Below the pieces are notes generated by a model. That model was not told the DNA's origin, made no database searches, and saw only the letters and a program-made list of their open reading frames with translations. This document shows positions 12,988-43,205 of a stretch of DNA of 64,000 nt, piece after piece. This stretch comes from Porphyromonas gingivicanis JCM 15907 (GTDB taxonomy: Bacteria > Bacteroidota > Bacteroidia > Bacteroidales > Porphyromonadaceae): assembly GCF_000614585.1 (NCBI RefSeq), contig NZ_BAKX01000003.1, forward strand, positions 186,001 through 250,000, read 5' to 3'. Both the position numbers and the translations under genes were made by a program. The stretch's first letter is position 1, and each line of letters starts with the position of its first letter.

Positions 12988-13043
12988 TGTCTTGGATCTG
13001 TTTTTAGGAGGTAGAGTATTCGTTATACTCCACCTTGGTTGTA

Positions 13044-32264: not shown

Positions 32265-33559
32265 ATGAATTCATTTGTAGAAGAGTTAAAGTGGCGTGGC
32301 ATGCTACACAACATAATGCCGGGCACAGAAGAACAATTGTCGAAAGAATTAACATCTGCTTACGTAGGTATTGACCCTACCGCAGATTCTCTGCATATAG
32401 GACATTTGGTGGGTGTGATGATGCTCCGCCATTTACAACGCTTCGGACATCGACCCATCGCTCTTCTGGGAGGTGCAACTGGTATGATTGGAGATCCCTC
32501 TATGAAGAGTGCAGAGCGCAAGCTATTAGATATAGAAACATTGCGTCATAATCAGGAGGCAATAGGGCGTCAGTTAGCTCGCTTTTTGGACTTCGATAGC
32601 CACCTTCCCAACGCTGCAAAGTTGGTCAATAACTATGACTGGATGTCGGAGTGGCGCTTCTTAGACTTTATCCGTGAGATAGGAAAGCATATTACCGTCA
32701 ACTATATGATGGCCAAAGACTCTGTCAAAAAGAGAATTGATGGACAGGATGGTGCGGGGCTCTCGTTTACGGAGTTTTCATACCAACTACTCCAAGGGTA
32801 TGATTTCCTCTACCTCTATCGTAATGAGGGTTGTCGTTTGCAGATGGGAGGTTCCGATCAGTGGGGCAATATTACCACGGGGACAGAATTAATCCGTCGT
32901 ATTGATGGGGGCGAAGCTTTGCGATTACCTGTCCTCTTATTACTAAGGCAGATGGCGGAAAGTTTGGAAAAACGGAAAAAGGCAATATCTGGCTCGATCG
33001 GCGCTACACTTCACCGTACACTTTCTATCAGTTCTGGCTCAATGTGAGCGATGATGATGCTGTACGTTACATCAAGATATTCACATTTTTGTCTAAAGAA
33101 GAAATTGAGACTCTAACAGAAGAGCATACTCAAGCTCCTCATAAGCGTATCTTGCAACGCAAGTTGGCAGAAGAGATGACCATATTGGTGCACAGCGAAG
33201 AGGATTACAAAGCAGCAGTCGAAGCTTCGGAGATACTTTTTGGTAATGGTACTGCCGAAGCATTGAAGAACCTACCCGAAGAACTTCTTTTAGCCGTAAT
33301 GGAGGGCGTTCCTCAGTTTACGATAACCCGAGAGGCTTTTGTCGCTTCGCCCAAGATGATAGACATTTGTACGGAGTTAGCTCCTATTTTTCCTTCAAAA
33401 GGAGAGCTTCGAAAACTCATAAAGAGCGGAGGAGTGAGCCTCAATAAGGAGAAGGTTGGCGATACAGAGTTGCTTCTTGGCGATGAATATCTTATCGCAG
33501 GGCGTTATCTATTGGTACAGAAAGGGAAGAAACAGTACTATTTGCTGACGGTTCAGTAA
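32265..33559 (+). CDS. tyrS: Tyrosyl-tRNA synthetase, frame broken once
   Basis: About 431 residues after repair, the normal length. Class I synthetase: HIGH-type motif [11 protein letters not shown] at about 38-48, tyrosine-binding YQLLQGYDF, and [13 protein letters not shown] near 200. The frame is lost near 32930; inserting one T gives [18 protein letters not shown], which contains the KMSKS-type loop KFGKTE required for catalysis. A C-terminal S4-like tRNA-binding domain ([18 protein letters not shown]) completes it. The gene is essential, so a base error is favoured. A promoter box at 32226 lies just upstream. Confidence 0.93.
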
Positions 33560-33585: not shown

Positions 33586-34659
33586 ATGTCTAAGCAACTG
33601 ACTATCGTTATTGTTAATTACAAAGTACCCCATTTTGTAGTACAATGCCTCGATTCGGTTGCTAAGGCTATAGCTTCGCTCGATGCAGAGGTGTGGGTGG
33701 TGGATAATGCTTCGGAAGATGGTTCGGTAGAACTGCTTTCCGAAGCATTTCCTTGGTGTCATATCATTGCCAATAGAGATAATGTTGGTTTTGCGAGGGC
33801 TAATAATCAAGTCTTGAAGCAGGCTACTTCTAAGTATGTATTGCTCCTTAATCCTGATACTTTGATTGGAGAATCTACACTAAAAGAGTGTATCTCTTTT
33901 ATGGAAACCCATCCCGATGCAGGTGCTTTGGGCGTACGTATGATGGATGCACAGGGGACCTTTCTTCCAGAGAGTAAGAGGGGAGTTGTTACGCCTTTTG
34001 TTGCTTTCTGTAAGATGACCGGCTTGGGCAAGATGTTTCCACGGAGTGCATTTTTCAATCGCTACTATTTGGGGCATTTATCCGATGATGCTGTTTGTAA
34101 GGCGCCTATACTGGCTGGAGCTTTTATGTTTATGCGTCAAGAGGCAGTACAGAGTGCCAACTACCTTGATGAACGTTACTTTATGTACGGAGAAGATATC
34201 GACCTTTCTTATAGTATTTTGCAATGCGGTTACACCAATTACTACCTGCCCATACCAATACTGCACTATAAGGGTGAGAGCGAAAGTGCTTCGGCTCATC
34301 CTGAACGTTACTTAGAGGCGTTTTATGGTGCAATGGAGCTTTTTTATGATAAGTATTACCATTCTTCACGTCTGACTCGCTACTTGATGCGTTTGGTAGT
34401 TCGATGGCAAAAGAGTAGAGGGAAGAAGAGGTTGGTTAAGCGAAAGGAGGATTTGCCAACTCCTTTGCGATCTAAGCAGTGGTCTAAAGATGCGTTGGAA
34501 GCAGTCCCTCCAGGAAGTTCCATTATTATAGAGCGCATACAGTTTTCCTACGATTCCTTACTGGAGATTATCCGTTCTTTAGAGGGAAGAGGAATAACGG
34601 TTTTTATCTACGATTCTATCCGACAAGTTACGATAGCCCCTGGAGGCATTTACTCCTAA
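33586..34659 (+). CDS. Glycosyltransferase family 2 (rhamnosyltransferase-like)
   Basis: 357 residues. GT-A fold: LTIVIVNYKVPHFVVQCLDS at the N-terminus, VWVVDNASEDGS at about 43-54, and the DXD-type VLLLNPDTLI near 89. FMYGEDIDLSYSILQCGY at about 204-221 is the usual acceptor-side acid motif of Bacteroidetes family 2 enzymes resembling WbbL rhamnosyltransferases. The C-terminal 60 residues are an extra domain of unknown role. It follows tyrS after 26 bases. A dTDP-rhamnose synthesis gene (rfbD) lies 10 kb away and could supply a donor, but this link is inference. Confidence 0.87.
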   Translation: MSKQLTIVIVNYKVPHFVVQCLDSVAKAIASLDAEVWVVDNASEDGSVELLSEAFPWCHIIANRDNVGFARANNQVLKQATSKYVLLLNPDTLIGESTLKECISFMETHPDAGALGVRMMDAQGTFLPESKRGVVTPFVAFCKMTGLGKMFPRSAFFNRYYLGHLSDDAVCKAPILAGAFMFMRQEAVQSANYLDERYFMYGEDIDLSYSILQCGYTNYYLPIPILHYKGESESASAHPERYLEAFYGAMELFYDKYYHSSRLTRYLMRLVVRWQKSRGKKRLVKRKEDLPTPLRSKQWSKDALEAVPPGSSIIIERIQFSYDSLLEIIRSLEGRGITVFIYDSIRQVTIAPGGIYS

Positions 34660-34684
34660 TAAGATTCTTTCGACCTCACTCTCC

Positions 34685-34726
34685 AAAAGAGAACCTCCCT
34701 CGAGTTAGAAAACGAGAGAGGCTCTT
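34685..34726 (-). terminator. Intrinsic terminator of the candidate small RNA
   Basis: GAGAACCTCCCTCG pairs with CGAGAGAGGCTC around a ten-base loop with one bulge. On the minus strand it is followed by TTTT. It may also stop the plus-strand glycosyltransferase transcript. Confidence 0.6.
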
Positions 34727-34928
34727 GACGAATAAGGAAATAAATTGAAAGAGAGAAGAAAATATCACGACAACTCTGCTAAAAGAAGCAGATTATGTGT
34801 CTTTAACAGTTGGCTTACTCCGAACAGTGGTATGGTAAAACTGACCTTTGTGAAGATACTTTTTAACCTAACCTTTGCAACCGCTTATTGCAAGCTCTGA
34901 CGGGAACTTCCTGCCTGTTATTTTTTCT
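34685..34928 (-). ncRNA. Candidate structured small RNA, about 240 nt
   Basis: A minus-strand unit with its own promoter (box at 34935-34942) and a hairpin plus T-run at its end, but no reading frame and no gene downstream on that strand. Internal hairpins are visible: TTGCAA-TAAGCGG-TTGCAA near the 5' end and CTGCT/AGCAG farther on. The length and setting would suit a 6S-type RNA, but I cannot match a consensus, and the diagnostic segments of tmRNA, RNase P RNA and SRP RNA are not present. Its family is therefore left open. Confidence 0.4.
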
Positions 34929-34934
34929 ACGATG

Positions 34935-34965
34935 CAAAGGTAGTAAGGTGCAAAAAAGACAACAA
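34935..34965 (-). promoter_or_regulatory. Promoter of the candidate small RNA
   Basis: Minus-strand TACCTTTG (34935-34942) with TTG at 34963-34965, spaced by exactly 20 bases. This is one of the best two-part Bacteroidetes promoter matches in the window, yet no gene lies downstream on this strand. Confidence 0.6.
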
Positions 34966-35082
34966 TACCCTGAAATAGGCATTTTAATATACTTACCCTA
35001 ACAGATTATAGCGATAAAGAATATTTTTTAAGAGATAAATAGAAGTAGAGGGAGATATTTATGCTTATTGCGAGCCACGACT

Positions 35083-35735
35083 TCACTTTTTTCGGATAAG
35101 GGTAAGTCCATCTCTTAGAGGGAGTAAAACGACTTCCACCCGAGGGTCGGAAGCAATCTGTTCATTGAAATGTACAATACCTTGTGTCTGTGCATCTTTT
35201 GGGGTGGGTGTTTGTAGTACTTTACCATCCCAAAGAGTATTGTCGGCTATAATTAAAGCACCTGATGGTAGCTTGTCGATGAGCAATTCATAGTAAAGAG
35301 TATACTGTCGCTTATCGGCATCCATATAGATAAGTTGGAAAGAAACTTCTTCTAATAATGTGGGTAAAATCTCTTCAGCTTTGCCAATATGAAGGGTGAT
35401 ATGTTCCGAAAGAGAGGATTGAGTCAATGATCTGCGGATGAAGTCTTCCATTTCGTCATTGCGCTCTATGGTGTGTACACGTCCAGAAGAGTTAGAAGAG
35501 AGTCCCTCTGCTAAGCATAAAGTAGCGTAAGCAGTATAGGTGCCTATCTCTAAGATGTTTTTTGGTTGTGTCAAGGAGACCAGCATTTTGAGAAAACGCC
35601 CCTGCAAATGTCCAGAAAGCATACGAGGTTGCAGAAGATGCACCTGTGCCTCCCTTCTTAGATAGGAGAGTAGAGAAGCTCTTCTGAAGAATGCGCCTCT
35701 AAGTACTGTTCTAATTCTTCCGATTGTAACGACAT
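35083..35735 (-). CDS. SAM-dependent O-methyltransferase, frame broken once
   Basis: Class I methyltransferase of the catechol O-methyltransferase type. SAM-binding motif ILEIGTYTAYATLCLAEGL, then IYMDADKRQYTLYYE (metal-binding acid region) and LIIADNTLWDGKV (second metal ligand region). A frame beginning at 35644 looks complete but lacks the usual N-terminus. Reading up to ATG at 35735 restores it if one C is added near 35678: the residues become EEPSLLSYLRREAQVHLLQP, the expected family start, giving about 217 residues. The substrate is unknown. It follows pyk on the minus strand, with a terminator and a separate leader hairpin between them. Confidence 0.85.
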
Positions 35736-35832: not shown

Positions 35833-37257
35833 TTACTTTTGGCTTATCAGATTATGCACTGTGTCTATTTCCAAAGAGTTGGTAGAGCCATTTTTACCGA
35901 TATTACCACTCATATGAGCCACCTTATCTTCCATTGTGAGGTAGCCAGAGGCTACTAATTGCTCCAAAGCCTCAGTCAAGTTTTGGGGCATTCCCTTTTC
36001 GAGAGGAACGTATTTGGTTTTTACTCCATAGGAGAGCGATAGTTGTCTCGAAATAGGTTTTCGGTAGCAAACGGCATAAATGGGTACTCTGCCTCGAAAT
36101 GCAGCTAAGTACCGAGCTGTACGACCTGTATAGCTATCCGCAATAAGTGCCTTTACGTTGAGTTTAGTAATACTCTTTACTGCTTGTTTTGCCAAGAAGG
36201 CAGTGGTGGTTAGGTCGTCTCCCTCTATTGGCACTCTTATATCATTGGCTTCCAAACGAGTTTGCTCTGCTTCGTATATCACTCGGCTCATTGTTTGCAC
36301 TGCCTCTATGGCATACTTCCCGTAAGCAGTTTCTCCGCTCAACATAACCGCATCTGTACGATAGTAAATAGCATTAGCAATGTCTGTTACCTCCGCACGT
36401 GTGGGGCGAGGATTGGTAATCATTGAGTGTAGCATTTGTGTGGCAACGATGACGGGCTTTTTCTTCTCGATAGCTTTTCGTATTAGGTGGCGTTGTATTC
36501 CAGGTATTCTTTCAAAGGGGATTTCTATCCCTAAATCGCCTCGAGCTATCATAATACCCGATGCCACAGAAAGGATTTCGTCGATATTATCTACCCCTTC
36601 TTGATTTTCTATTTTAGCGATAATTTCGATGGAGCTGTTATAGGCATTCAAAATGCGTTGGATATCCAACACATCCTCTTTGGTACGCACGAAAGAGTGA
36701 GCGATGAAGTCAATTTCTTTACGGATAGCATACTCAATAAAGGAGAGGTCTTTCTTTGTGAGCGAGGGTAGTGGAATGTGTACATCGGGTATGTTCACAC
36801 TCTTGCGACTTTTTAGTTCTGCTTCGTTTTGTATGGTACACACAGCTTCTGTAAGCCCCACCTCCATCACCAAGAGTTCCAAATCTCCATCGTCAATCAA
36901 TATACGCATTCCCGGTTGGAGCACATTAATGATGTCAGGATAGGAGAGTGCAATCTGCTCGTGGGTTGTTAATTCATCGGGTGCTCCTCGAAGGATAACC
37001 TTCTCGCCAGCTTTGAATAGGATAGGGCTTTCACAAACAGTTGTTCTAATTTCTGGCCCCTTGGTGTCCATAAGAATACCTACGTAGGGATCTACGGCAC
37101 GGACATTATCGACTACCTTATTCATCCCTTCTGGAGTCATATGGGCTGTGTTCAAACGTACCACATTGACACCTGCATCAATTAGTGATTTGAGAAACTC
37201 TTTGTCGCAACGCTCGTCACTGATGGTTGCTACTATTTTGGTTAATTTTTGTGACAT
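35833..37257 (-). CDS. pyk: Pyruvate kinase
   Basis: 474 residues. The final step of glycolysis, making pyruvate and ATP from phosphoenolpyruvate. The active-site region MVARGDLG-equivalent is IMIARGDLGIEIPFERIP at about 235-252, preceded by IIAKIENQEGVDNIDEI (about 213-229), and VATQMLHSMITNPRPTRAEVTDIANAI follows in parts. The N-terminus (TKIVATISDERCDKEFLKSLIDAGVNVVRLNTAH) is typical. It begins two bases after the aroQ stop, so aroQ and pyk are co-transcribed. Intact. Confidence 0.97.
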   Translation of the reverse strand: MSQKLTKIVATISDERCDKEFLKSLIDAGVNVVRLNTAHMTPEGMNKVVDNVRAVDPYVGILMDTKGPEIRTTVCESPILFKAGEKVILRGAPDELTTHEQIALSYPDIINVLQPGMRILIDDGDLELLVMEVGLTEAVCTIQNEAELKSRKSVNIPDVHIPLPSLTKKDLSFIEYAIRKEIDFIAHSFVRTKEDVLDIQRILNAYNSSIEIIAKIENQEGVDNIDEILSVASGIMIARGDLGIEIPFERIPGIQRHLIRKAIEKKKPVIVATQMLHSMITNPRPTRAEVTDIANAIYYRTDAVMLSGETAYGKYAIEAVQTMSRVIYEAEQTRLEANDIRVPIEGDDLTTTAFLAKQAVKSITKLNVKALIADSYTGRTARYLAAFRGRVPIYAVCYRKPISRQLSLSYGVKTKYVPLEKGMPQNLTEALEQLVASGYLTMEDKVAHMSGNIGKNGSTNSLEIDTVHNLISQK

Positions 37258-37766: not shown

Positions 37767-38689
37767 ATGACAGATAGAGAGTTGATAGATGCCTACAAGC
37801 GTTATCTGCGCTTGGAACTTAATTTAACCGAGAATAGTATACAGGCTTACCTTGGAGATGTGGAAAAACTCTTTCATTTCTTACATACTTCAGGCATAAC
37901 ATTGGAAGAAGTTACCTACGCTACTCTTCAGCAATTCGTAGCTCAACTCTACGATTTGGGCATTTCTCCCCGTTCTACAGCAAGGATTATTTCGGGTGTT
38001 AAGAGCTTTTATAGATTTCTTATGTTGGAAGAGTATGTCGAGTTGGACCCAAGTGAACTTTTAGAGACACCAAAGATTGGACTTCATTTACCCACAGTAC
38101 TTTCTGTCGAGGAGATAGACCATATCATTGAAAGTATTGATATGACTAAGGACGAAGGGCTGCGTAATAGAGCAATTATAGAGGTACTTTACAGTTGTGG
38201 CTTACGAGTGAGTGAACTCTGCCATCTGCGTTTGCGAGATGTACATCCCGAAGAGGGGTTTGTGCAAGTATGGGGCAAGGGGCGTAAAGAGCGATTGGTG
38301 CCGATTAGCTCATCTGCTTGGAAGCTATCAATACCTACCTTTCTTCGGATAAGCGTTATACTCCCAAAGCTGGAGAGGGAGAGTATATATTTCTCTCTCG
38401 GCGGGGAAAAGCCATCTCACGCATAACGGTTTTCTGTCTTATCAAACAGCTTGCTACGATGGCGGGTATTACCAAAGAGATAAGTCCCCACACCTTTCGG
38501 CATAGCTTCGCGACCCATTTGCTTGAAGGGGGAGCTAACTTGCAGGCCATACGTATGATGCTGGGACATGAAGATATCGGTACTACCGAGATTTATACCC
38601 ATATTGACAAAACAAAATTGAGGAGAGATATACTGAAATATCACCCTCGAAATAGTGCTTACTATGATTCTCTGAAAGAAGAGGAGTAA
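37767..38689 (+). CDS. xerD: Tyrosine recombinase XerD, frame broken once
   Basis: About 307 residues after repair, the normal size. It resolves chromosome dimers at dif together with XerC and FtsK. The N-terminal SAM-like DNA-binding domain spans residues 1-90. Catalytic residues are visible: arginine in YSCGLRVSELCHLRL (about 145-159), HTFRHSFATHLLEGG with histidine and second arginine, HED in MMLGHEDIGTTEIY, and the tyrosine nucleophile in EIYTHI. The frame is lost at 38318, where a third T gives SSALEAINTYLSS. Genome maintenance role makes an assembly error more likely than decay. Confidence 0.92.
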
Positions 38690-42003: not shown

Positions 42004-43205
42004 ATGCTCTCTTTGCGCTTAGCTTCTCGTTACTTCTTTTCGATGAAGAGATTGCATTCTGTACATATCATCTCTACAATCTCTTCTATTACGGTGGGGA
42101 TAGTGGTTATGGCAGCGGTTTGTATCCTCTCTATTTTTAATGGATATGAACGTATTTTGCTCAATCAAGTTAGCTTCTTAGACCCTCCTCTACTTATTGA
42201 GCGTGCAGATAAACAGGTTTTTCTCTCTGAAGAACCGCACTTGCAGAAGATACTATCGCAGACTACAAGTTTAGAAAACTACTCCTTTGCTCTACAAGCA
42301 GATGGGGTAGTGCGCTCTGACGTTACACAGCGAGTAGCACATCTTTATGGTGTAGATACCGCTTTTGCTGAGGTCAATAATGTTGCACCCCTTGCTTTTT
42401 TAGGACAGTTTACAACAAAGGAAGAACAGTACACTTTGGGGTTAGAACTCTATGGAACTCTCTTTCCCGTCTTTTCTGCTTTGGAGGATAGCGTTATGAT
42501 TTACAGCCCCAAAAGGAAAGGATTTATCAATCCAATGTTACCCAATACCGCCTTTCGATTGAAAAAGGGCGAGGCGACTTCCGTAATTAATGTGCAAAAT
42601 GAGTATTATGACCAATCTCTTTTTTTAGATATTGATGCGCTACGCACTCTTTTGGATTATACCTCTTCCGAAGCCGATAGGGTGCTATTACTACCCAAAA
42701 AAGAGCTTTCGCTCTCAGAGGTACAAAAGAGCTTGCAAGAGGATTTGGGAGATGAATGGAGGGTGCTTAATCGTGCGGAGCAACAACCTGATTTGATTCG
42801 CTTGGTTGCTATTGAGAAATGGATGAGCTTCTTTATCCTTTTTTTCGTTCTTCTGTTAGCAGCGTTCAATGTGGTATGCTCTTCCTCAATGTTGATTATC
42901 GAAAAAAAGAGAGACGTAGAGATACTCTCTTTCTTGGGGGGCAGAGTAAATTCGTTCGTCGAGTGTTTTTAATCCAAGGTTTTTTTGTTACTTTTTTAGG
43001 AGCCTTTATTGGTTTCTTTTTGGGGCTACTGCTCATAGGAGCGCAAGACCGATGGGGGTGGATTACCTATGGACAAGGAATTTACAAGCAACCCTATCCT
43101 GTAGAGATACAAGGTCTTGATATTTTCATCCTACTGATGACTATTGTTATAGTAGGCTACTTGTCTTCTCTTTATCCCGTATATCGTTTACTCAGAAAAA
43201 AATAA
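42004..43205 (+). CDS. LolC/LolE-type ABC permease, frame broken once
   Basis: About 400 residues after repair. FtsX/MacB topology: an N-terminal helix at about 20-45 (SITVGIVVMAAVCILSIFNGYE), a large periplasmic domain, then three C-terminal helices. Such proteins extract lipoproteins from the inner membrane with a LolD ATPase, which is not encoded here. The frame is lost in the G-run at 42936-42941; a seventh G joins EILSFLGG to QSKFVRRVFLIQGFFV, the expected FtsX-domain sequence. Lipoprotein release is the likely role, but a MacB-like exporter cannot be excluded. Confidence 0.85.

Follow-up and report, generated by a model that had tools for sequence, protein, structure and literature searches.

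A predicted small-RNA gene of Porphyromonas gingivicanis with an operator-like promoter dyad common to haem-uptake genes

Background

Porphyromonas gingivalis depends on host haem, and how its Fur-like regulator activates genes is an open question. Expression of hmuY is reported to rise about ten-fold in hemin limitation (PMC4222909), and accounts of its control conflict: PgFur is described as binding the hmu promoter but not an E. coli Fur box, with PgFur loss raising HmuY in partly starved A7436 (PMC6613475), a har mutant of ATCC 33277 reportedly carries about two-fold less hmuY transcript (PMC4222909), and HaeR is reported to bind the hmuY promoter by EMSA in vitro, with ChIP-seq given as showing no enrichment (PMC3764172). 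The authors of one of these studies took the Fur orthologue to exert positive control directly, and not through a RyhB-like RNA (PMC4222909), and Hfq is reported missing from P. gingivalis (PMC4222909; PMC12119571). Among described RNAs of related bacteria, a 6S RNA is reported for Bacteroides (PMC7366714), Bacteroidales-1 was described as a Bacteroidales RNA motif (PMC2864571), and the small RNA FopS is reported to have an RRM-protein partner (PMC11697453). Word searches of the literature returned no small RNA of haem or iron limitation for Bacteroidota.

Here, we examined a minus-strand unit in a 64,000-nucleotide stretch of P. gingivicanis JCM 15907 (hereafter the window; NZ_BAKX01000003.1, positions 186,001 to 250,000), which an earlier note, made from the sequence alone, had proposed as an orphan transcription unit and candidate small RNA (sRNA). 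We compared the unit with related genomes, with known RNA families and with the promoters of haem-uptake genes, and describe what is very probably a real small-RNA gene, whose promoter is overlapped by an operator-like dyad found also at hmuY and at TonB-dependent receptor genes. Literature searches, made by words rather than by the letters of the dyad and with main texts as their scope, found no description of this sRNA or of the dyad.

Results

Assembly and neighbouring genes

The P. gingivicanis assembly is a 2.05-Mb draft in 35 contigs (completeness 88.5, contamination 5.4). Two genes of the window are broken in it: tyrS (32265-33559) is frameshifted near 32909-32918 relative to the intact P. 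circumdentaria gene, both halves matching tyrosyl-tRNA synthetase domains, and this split is likely a draft indel error, while a tyrosine recombinase (37767-38689), which we take to be XerC/D-like, is read in two overlapping frames, each with half of a Phage_integrase domain, and was probably split by a sequencing indel. The sRNA unit lies between a plus-strand glycosyltransferase gene and a minus-strand O-methyltransferase gene, ahead of the convergent glycosyltransferase stop (Table 1).

Table 1. Features of the sRNA locus, in positions of the window
Feature	Position	Strand	Remarks
Convergent neighbour, family 2 glycosyltransferase	33586..34659	+	PF00535; stop at 34659
Predicted small RNA, about 245 nt, ends approximate	34684..34930	-	From promoter and terminator positions; homologues in 4 other genomes
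Intrinsic terminator	34685..34725	-	13-bp hairpin 34725-34690, 10-base loop, four T at 34688-34685
Conserved pyrimidine-rich block UUCUUCUCUCUUUCAAUUUAUUUCCUUAUUCGU	34728..34760	-	Predicted mostly unpaired; likely interaction region
Hairpin UCUGCU-UCUUUU-AGCAGA	34775..34792	-	One pair changed on both sides in P. circumdentaria
Hairpin UUGCAAU-AAGCG-GUUGCAA	34875..34893	-	AGCG-containing loop in 4 of 5 predicted full folds; stem sequence varies
-7 box TACCTTTG	34935..34942	-	20-nt spacing kept in other homologues
-33 box TTG	34963..34965	-	20 nt before -7 box
Operator-like dyad AATGCC-N8-GGTATT	34964..34983	-	Overlaps -33 box; same dyad at hmuY and TonB-dependent receptors
Further conserved stretch upstream of promoter	34985..35023	-	0.90-0.97 identity to P. 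circumdentaria in 30-base windows
Upstream neighbour, O-methyltransferase	35083..35643	-	PF01596

Promoter and transcript anatomy

The elements that the earlier note had read from the letters were all located. Its promoter, TTG followed by 20 bases and TACCTTTG, is present on the minus strand (34965-34935) and is of the Bacteroidota type, common to the homologues described below; the strict pattern TTG-N20-TAnnTTTG has this single match in the 64 kb with both strands counted, while a relaxed pattern gave 18 starts in the window, the sRNA promoter and its near-duplicates included. The claimed 240 or so bases free of a reading frame are borne out by a minus strand with no ORF of at least 50 aa between 34660 and 35082, and the short frames on the transcript strand differ among homologues, none being common to them. 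A small peptide as product was rejected on the missing shared frame and on one-base indels between species within the conserved block. On the plus strand, a 51-aa ORF (34745-34900) overlaps the unit and has no Pfam match.

The hairpin with T-run that the note had placed before the convergent gene end was found as the terminator of Table 1. With its 10-base loop and four T it is absent from the list of a mechanical terminator scan, which allowed loops of up to 8 and asked for at least 5 T; that scan gave two weak plus-strand sites against 0.7 expected, and the hairpin at 34775-34792 is listed by it on the plus strand. The internal TTGCAA/TTGCAA hairpin was likewise found (34893-34875). The predicted fold of the transcript has a z of -2.9, none of 200 shuffles being as low. 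In the predicted folds of P. gingivicanis and P. circumdentaria, an A-run at the 5' end pairs with the U-run that opens the block, leaving the rest of the block and the terminator outside, a closure not seen in the other three of the five predicted folds; a 6S RNA would have its 5' and 3' ends joined in a long rod with a central bubble.

Homologues and conservation

A DNA search of 61 genomes yielded a 77% identical copy in P. circumdentaria ATCC 51356, the nearest named relative among the genomes searched (neighbouring proteins 74-97% identical), and short matches in Porphyromonas sp. SUG530 and P. endodontalis ATCC 35406; most of the remaining matches were weak and chance-like. The homologous loci gave a promoter block consensus, AAAATGCCTAT-N5-GGTATTGT-N19-TAnnTTTG, and a 3' block consensus of 32-35 nt right before the terminator, UUCUUCUCUCUUUCAA(A)UUUAUUUCCUU(A)AUUCGU. 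Both patterns picked out the identical 4 of 38 family genomes, once in each and at the same loci, with no match for the backwards control. Across 393 genomes sampled evenly over the order, the 3' block pattern occurred in one, P. gingivicanis itself, and in a second genome collection it occurred in three Porphyromonas records and in two others, a Flavobacteriales and a Mycoplasmataceae record, both rejected by eye as being without the flanking features.

A fifth copy, in genome G015, came up as the sixth match (E 0.06) of a block profile, R1, built without that genome, and was recognised from its flanks, a TTG-N20-TACCTTTG promoter and a terminator; its RNA would be under 190 nt, with the diverged block CUUCUCUCUUUUUAAUCAGUUUCCUUAUUC. 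A second profile, R2, was trained on all five copies, and its recovery of them is no independent proof. Of its 35 places, five came with no locus attached; among the 30 examined, an upstream promoter and a downstream terminator occurred together only in the five copies; the other 25 included none with a promoter and three with a terminator-like hairpin by a loose rule. The genome that we take for P. gingivalis (it encodes a 216-aa HmuY) gave no sRNA copy by the promoter and block patterns or by profiles R1 and R2. Two R1 matches in it, and one in genome G010, were rejected by eye as missing the arrangement.

Conservation thus extends beyond the promoter box, the finding on which the earlier proposal of an orphan sRNA unit had been made to depend, and since other genomes have the promoter stretch, the 3' block and the terminator in the same combination, the unit stands beyond chance. 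The P. circumdentaria copy has the same neighbour genes as that of P. gingivicanis, those of P. endodontalis and SUG530 lie at a different place, some 1-5 kb upstream of a gene identified by eye as groES, and that of G015 represents a third genomic context. Because the RNA sits elsewhere in P. endodontalis and SUG530, it has no fixed link to the convergent gene and is expected to work in trans, for which the three contexts among five copies also argue.

Compared in 30-base windows, the P. gingivicanis and P. circumdentaria loci have an identity of 0.83-0.97 across the promoter and the 38 bases upstream of it; the value drops to 0.4 midway along the RNA and returns to 0.87-1.0 across the block and most of the terminator, with 0.8 at the terminator end. 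The upstream stretch (34985-35023, the ATCGCTATWAT region) is present in the four homologues that have the dyad, some 30 bases upstream of it, with an alignment that is ambiguous outside P. circumdentaria. In each of the five copies the block is followed by hairpins, whose sequences differ except in P. circumdentaria. The block itself is kept as sub-motifs with one-base spacing changes between species, and in all five homologues it is the least paired window predicted before the terminator (block means 0.57-0.81), none of the 144, 146, 141, 175 and 93 other windows being as open.

The AGCG loop takes the form AAGCG in P. gingivicanis and P. circumdentaria, AGCG in P. endodontalis and AAGCGA in G015; in SUG530 it sits on a short local stem (4 bp, bulge, 3 bp) only when the piece is folded alone, the full fold pairing otherwise. 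For P. gingivicanis, P. endodontalis and G015, with stems of at least 6 bp, shuffles gave any common loop 4-mer in 2 of 2000 cases and AGCG in none. When SUG530 was added and 4-bp stems were admitted, the count was 76 of 2000 (1 of 2000 within the first 65 nt), and for P. gingivicanis, SUG530 and G015 alone it was 350 of 2000; with stems of at least 5 bp, no loop was common to the sets containing SUG530.

An operator-like dyad at the promoter

In four of the five sRNA copies, a dyad AATRCC-N8-GGTATT overlaps the -33 box, its right arm entering the TTG; the G015 promoter has none, and no exact dyad occurs anywhere in that genome. The five genomes hold nine exact places (0-3 per genome; backwards control 0): the four sRNA promoters, two hmuY-hmuR loci, one TonB-dependent receptor gene (P. 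endodontalis), one gene for a secreted-looking protein and one intragenic place (SUG530). The hmuY-hmuR dyads of P. gingivicanis and P. circumdentaria are similarly placed, ahead of a PF14064 HmuY in both, and the P. circumdentaria hmuR product has a TonB plug domain. Judged by eye, the secreted-looking protein is preceded by dyad and -7 box in P. endodontalis (contig position 42853) and is divergent from a C10-type-protease-like protein. The dyad pattern was derived from the sRNA promoter, and the arms of most other sites therefore match by selection, P. gingivalis hmuY alone being exempt.

That gene was found by homology rather than by motif, and carries AATACC-N8-GGGATT (one mismatch) at the same place, with a promoter of TTG-N20 before CAACTTTG. 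When a -7 box was required, 280 kb of P. gingivalis held three places at two mismatches, hmuY being the only one of them with a single mismatch; with no -7 box required, four places in 100 kb had at most one mismatch. In a leave-one-out profile, P. gingivalis hmuY was the best site of the 280 kb (20.6 vs 16.9).

In 348 kb of the contig of P. gingivicanis itself, a scan for the dyad at up to two mismatches, with either left arm and a -7 box at the right distance, found two places, the sRNA and a TonB-dependent receptor gene (position 13040; one mismatch) whose product is 78% identical over 471 aa to the dyad-bearing P. endodontalis receptor. Ten decoy dyads, each with a single left arm, together produced 10 places at up to two mismatches, about one per decoy; at up to one mismatch the decoys gave one in all, and the real dyad, which was allowed two left arms, gave two, the sRNA itself included. 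A profile of five other, non-RNA sites ranked the sRNA promoter best of the 348 kb (17.1 vs 13.5), while the receptor site, when left out of the profile, fell outside the top eight of the contig, and the P. gingivalis orthologue of this receptor (64% identical) has no dyad upstream.

An earlier promoter-pattern search of 38 genomes at up to three mismatches, written with 18 free bases and not 19, missed most true copies and found four places. These were the P. endodontalis RNA; a place in genome G012, which is without the sRNA, where an exact dyad and TACCTTTG precede a TonB-dependent receptor gene (contig position 36867; plug domain; 25% identical to the P. gingivicanis receptor over 129 aa); a promoter-like match near a tRNA in SUG530, with a poor dyad; and a place in genome G022 at which nothing was recognised.

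Comparison with RNA families

Across the whole window, a single tRNA alone reached an Rfam gathering threshold, so that the Bacteroidales-1 model (RF01693), suggested earlier as a check, had no match in the window at that threshold. The 6S model RF00013 matched 0 of 26 genus genomes, with a control positive in 5 of 14 genomes, none of them Bacteroidota, so that a diverged 6S could be missed; RF01685 (6S-Flavo) likewise matched 0 of 26, a count that carries no information since its control was positive nowhere, and nothing in the window at gathering. RyhB (RF00057) had no match in the window at gathering, none in 34400-35200 up to E 10 and none in the four homologous loci up to E 5. Three sub-threshold matches were rejected: BTnc201 and BTnc049 at P. 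endodontalis terminators (31 and 25 bits vs thresholds of 105 and 81.9), which cover terminator hairpins only and stop short of the block, and STnc50 at the 3' end of the G015 copy (31.8 vs 55).

Candidate targets

The 11-mer complementary to the block core, AAGGAAATAAA, has 24 sites, four of them the RNA loci, and is hardly enriched, with 20 other sites against 16 in the backwards control. Against the start regions of the P. gingivicanis contig (304 crude gene calls), the block did no better than its shuffles: all 60 had a lower mean energy, and 35 of the 60 reached the block's best single target. In P. endodontalis, AAGGAAATAAA begins 22 nt before the start of cydA. Set among these same 304 regions and paired with each species' own block, the cydA start ranked 9 for P. 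endodontalis, 57 for SUG530, 48 for P. circumdentaria, 50 for G015 (where the start used is a few bases off) and 121 for P. gingivicanis. As a conserved target cydA was rejected, good pairing being found in P. endodontalis only (1 of 5 genomes); since CydA is a haem enzyme, the gene is kept as a lead. The P. gingivicanis cydA (150131-151711 of the contig) aligns with P. circumdentaria CydA in three consecutive segments that are read in different frames, a pattern that two mutually compensating indels would give and that fits indel errors in the draft assembly.

Discussion

The anatomy of the unit, its conservation and the dyad that it has in common with hmuY and TonB-dependent receptor genes are read from sequence comparison; its transcription, and with it the regulator, the sign of regulation, the targets and any partner protein, we infer. 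Our main reading, for and against which we find the balance about even, is that of a gene for a trans-acting sRNA, controlled by the promoter switch that serves the haem-uptake regulon, a membership that would be open to direct testing. The position of the dyad across the -33 box points most simply to a repression that is lifted when haem or iron runs short. Under such shortage, a repressor would quit the dyad, transcription would begin near 34930, and an RNA of about 245 nt would stop at the intrinsic terminator; the open block before it might then pair with a few mRNAs, or be bound by an RNA-binding protein of the RRM type, and genes that use haem or iron would change in expression, giving a working analogue of RyhB without Hfq. 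The conflicting PgFur, har-mutant and HaeR results leave more than one candidate for the protein on the dyad. The decoy, leave-one-out and SUG530 results count against the main reading and the G012 receptor counts for it.

The target tests (cydA, start regions) lent pairing no support, and protein titration therefore remains a serious rival, albeit one that we hold unlikely: a conserved sRNA would titrate a protein, for example the RRM-domain RbpPg1, through the pyrimidine-rich block, with haem perhaps as one input. A block kept as spaced sub-motifs and the lack of start-region preference on one contig would fit such a role, as would the reported binding of RbpB, an RRM protein of Bacteroides, to unpaired stretches of sRNAs (PMC11697453); against it, one reported B. 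thetaiotaomicron RbpB motif (PMC12119571), the one motif compared, is unlike the block. Rather improbable, in our estimate, is a conserved and terminated RNA with a dyad that belongs to its promoter but has no connection with haem, the function of the RNA lying elsewhere, for example in the envelope. The dyad sites were mostly picked by resemblance, one P. endodontalis gene under the dyad encodes a protein that looks secreted by eye, TonB-dependent receptors are not all for haem and the G015 copy has no dyad, all of which would suit that explanation; the hmuY test in P. gingivalis and the rarity of the dyad speak against it.

That the locus yields no functional RNA, the promoter being spurious and the hairpin belonging to the convergent gene, draws on the short T-run, on the terminator's absence from the mechanical list and on the position of the hairpin just downstream of the glycosyltransferase stop, but the same set of features occurs elsewhere in P. 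endodontalis, SUG530 and G015, and we regard this explanation as very improbable. The 6S-like RNA that the earlier note had offered as one possibility, which would bind RNA polymerase, is not supported and seems to us barely credible: size, orphan location, the known 6S RNA of Bacteroides and the closure of the 5' A-run on the block-start U-run in two folds favour it, while RF00013 found no match (under its limited control), the closure is missing from three folds, and the middle diverges where the 3' block is conserved and open.

Returning to the trans-acting sRNA, a further step is more tentative: an Hfq-free, RyhB-like RNA under the haem-uptake operator might be the route by which a Fur-like repressor exerts positive control over haem-using genes. 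An sRNA under an hmu-type dyad in sister species would make a RyhB-type answer testable for P. gingivalis, and the dyad itself offers a concrete site at hmuY.

Set beside known systems, the sRNA is like Bacteroidales-1 (RF01693) in being an RNA of Bacteroidales (PMC2864571) but unlike it at the level of the model, which the window does not match at gathering. With 6S RNA (RF00013, RF01685) it has in common its size class and an orphan gene, and differs in giving no model match (limited control), in its open conserved 3' block and in its diverging middle. GibS and FopS of Bacteroides thetaiotaomicron resemble it in having their own promoter, an open conserved segment and a Rho-independent terminator; FopS, however, carries its R1 seed at the 5' end and belongs to a 14-member family linked to glycan uptake, whereas the present sRNA has one block copy per genome, is longer and bears the dyad of haem genes. 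RyhB (RF00057) differs in sequence, and the sRNA has a Bacteroidota promoter, a length of about 245 nt and a dyad that we take not to be a canonical Fur box. Unlike the setting of RyhB, P. gingivalis is reported to be without Hfq (PMC4222909; PMC12119571). In common with RyhB and other iron-responsive sRNAs, the locus is intergenic, with its own promoter, an intrinsic terminator and an open conserved segment, and the operator-like site that overlaps the promoter and is common to haem-uptake genes may be a counterpart of the operator there; a dyad-controlled RNA with an open conserved block and a terminator would be built like RyhB and its analogues.
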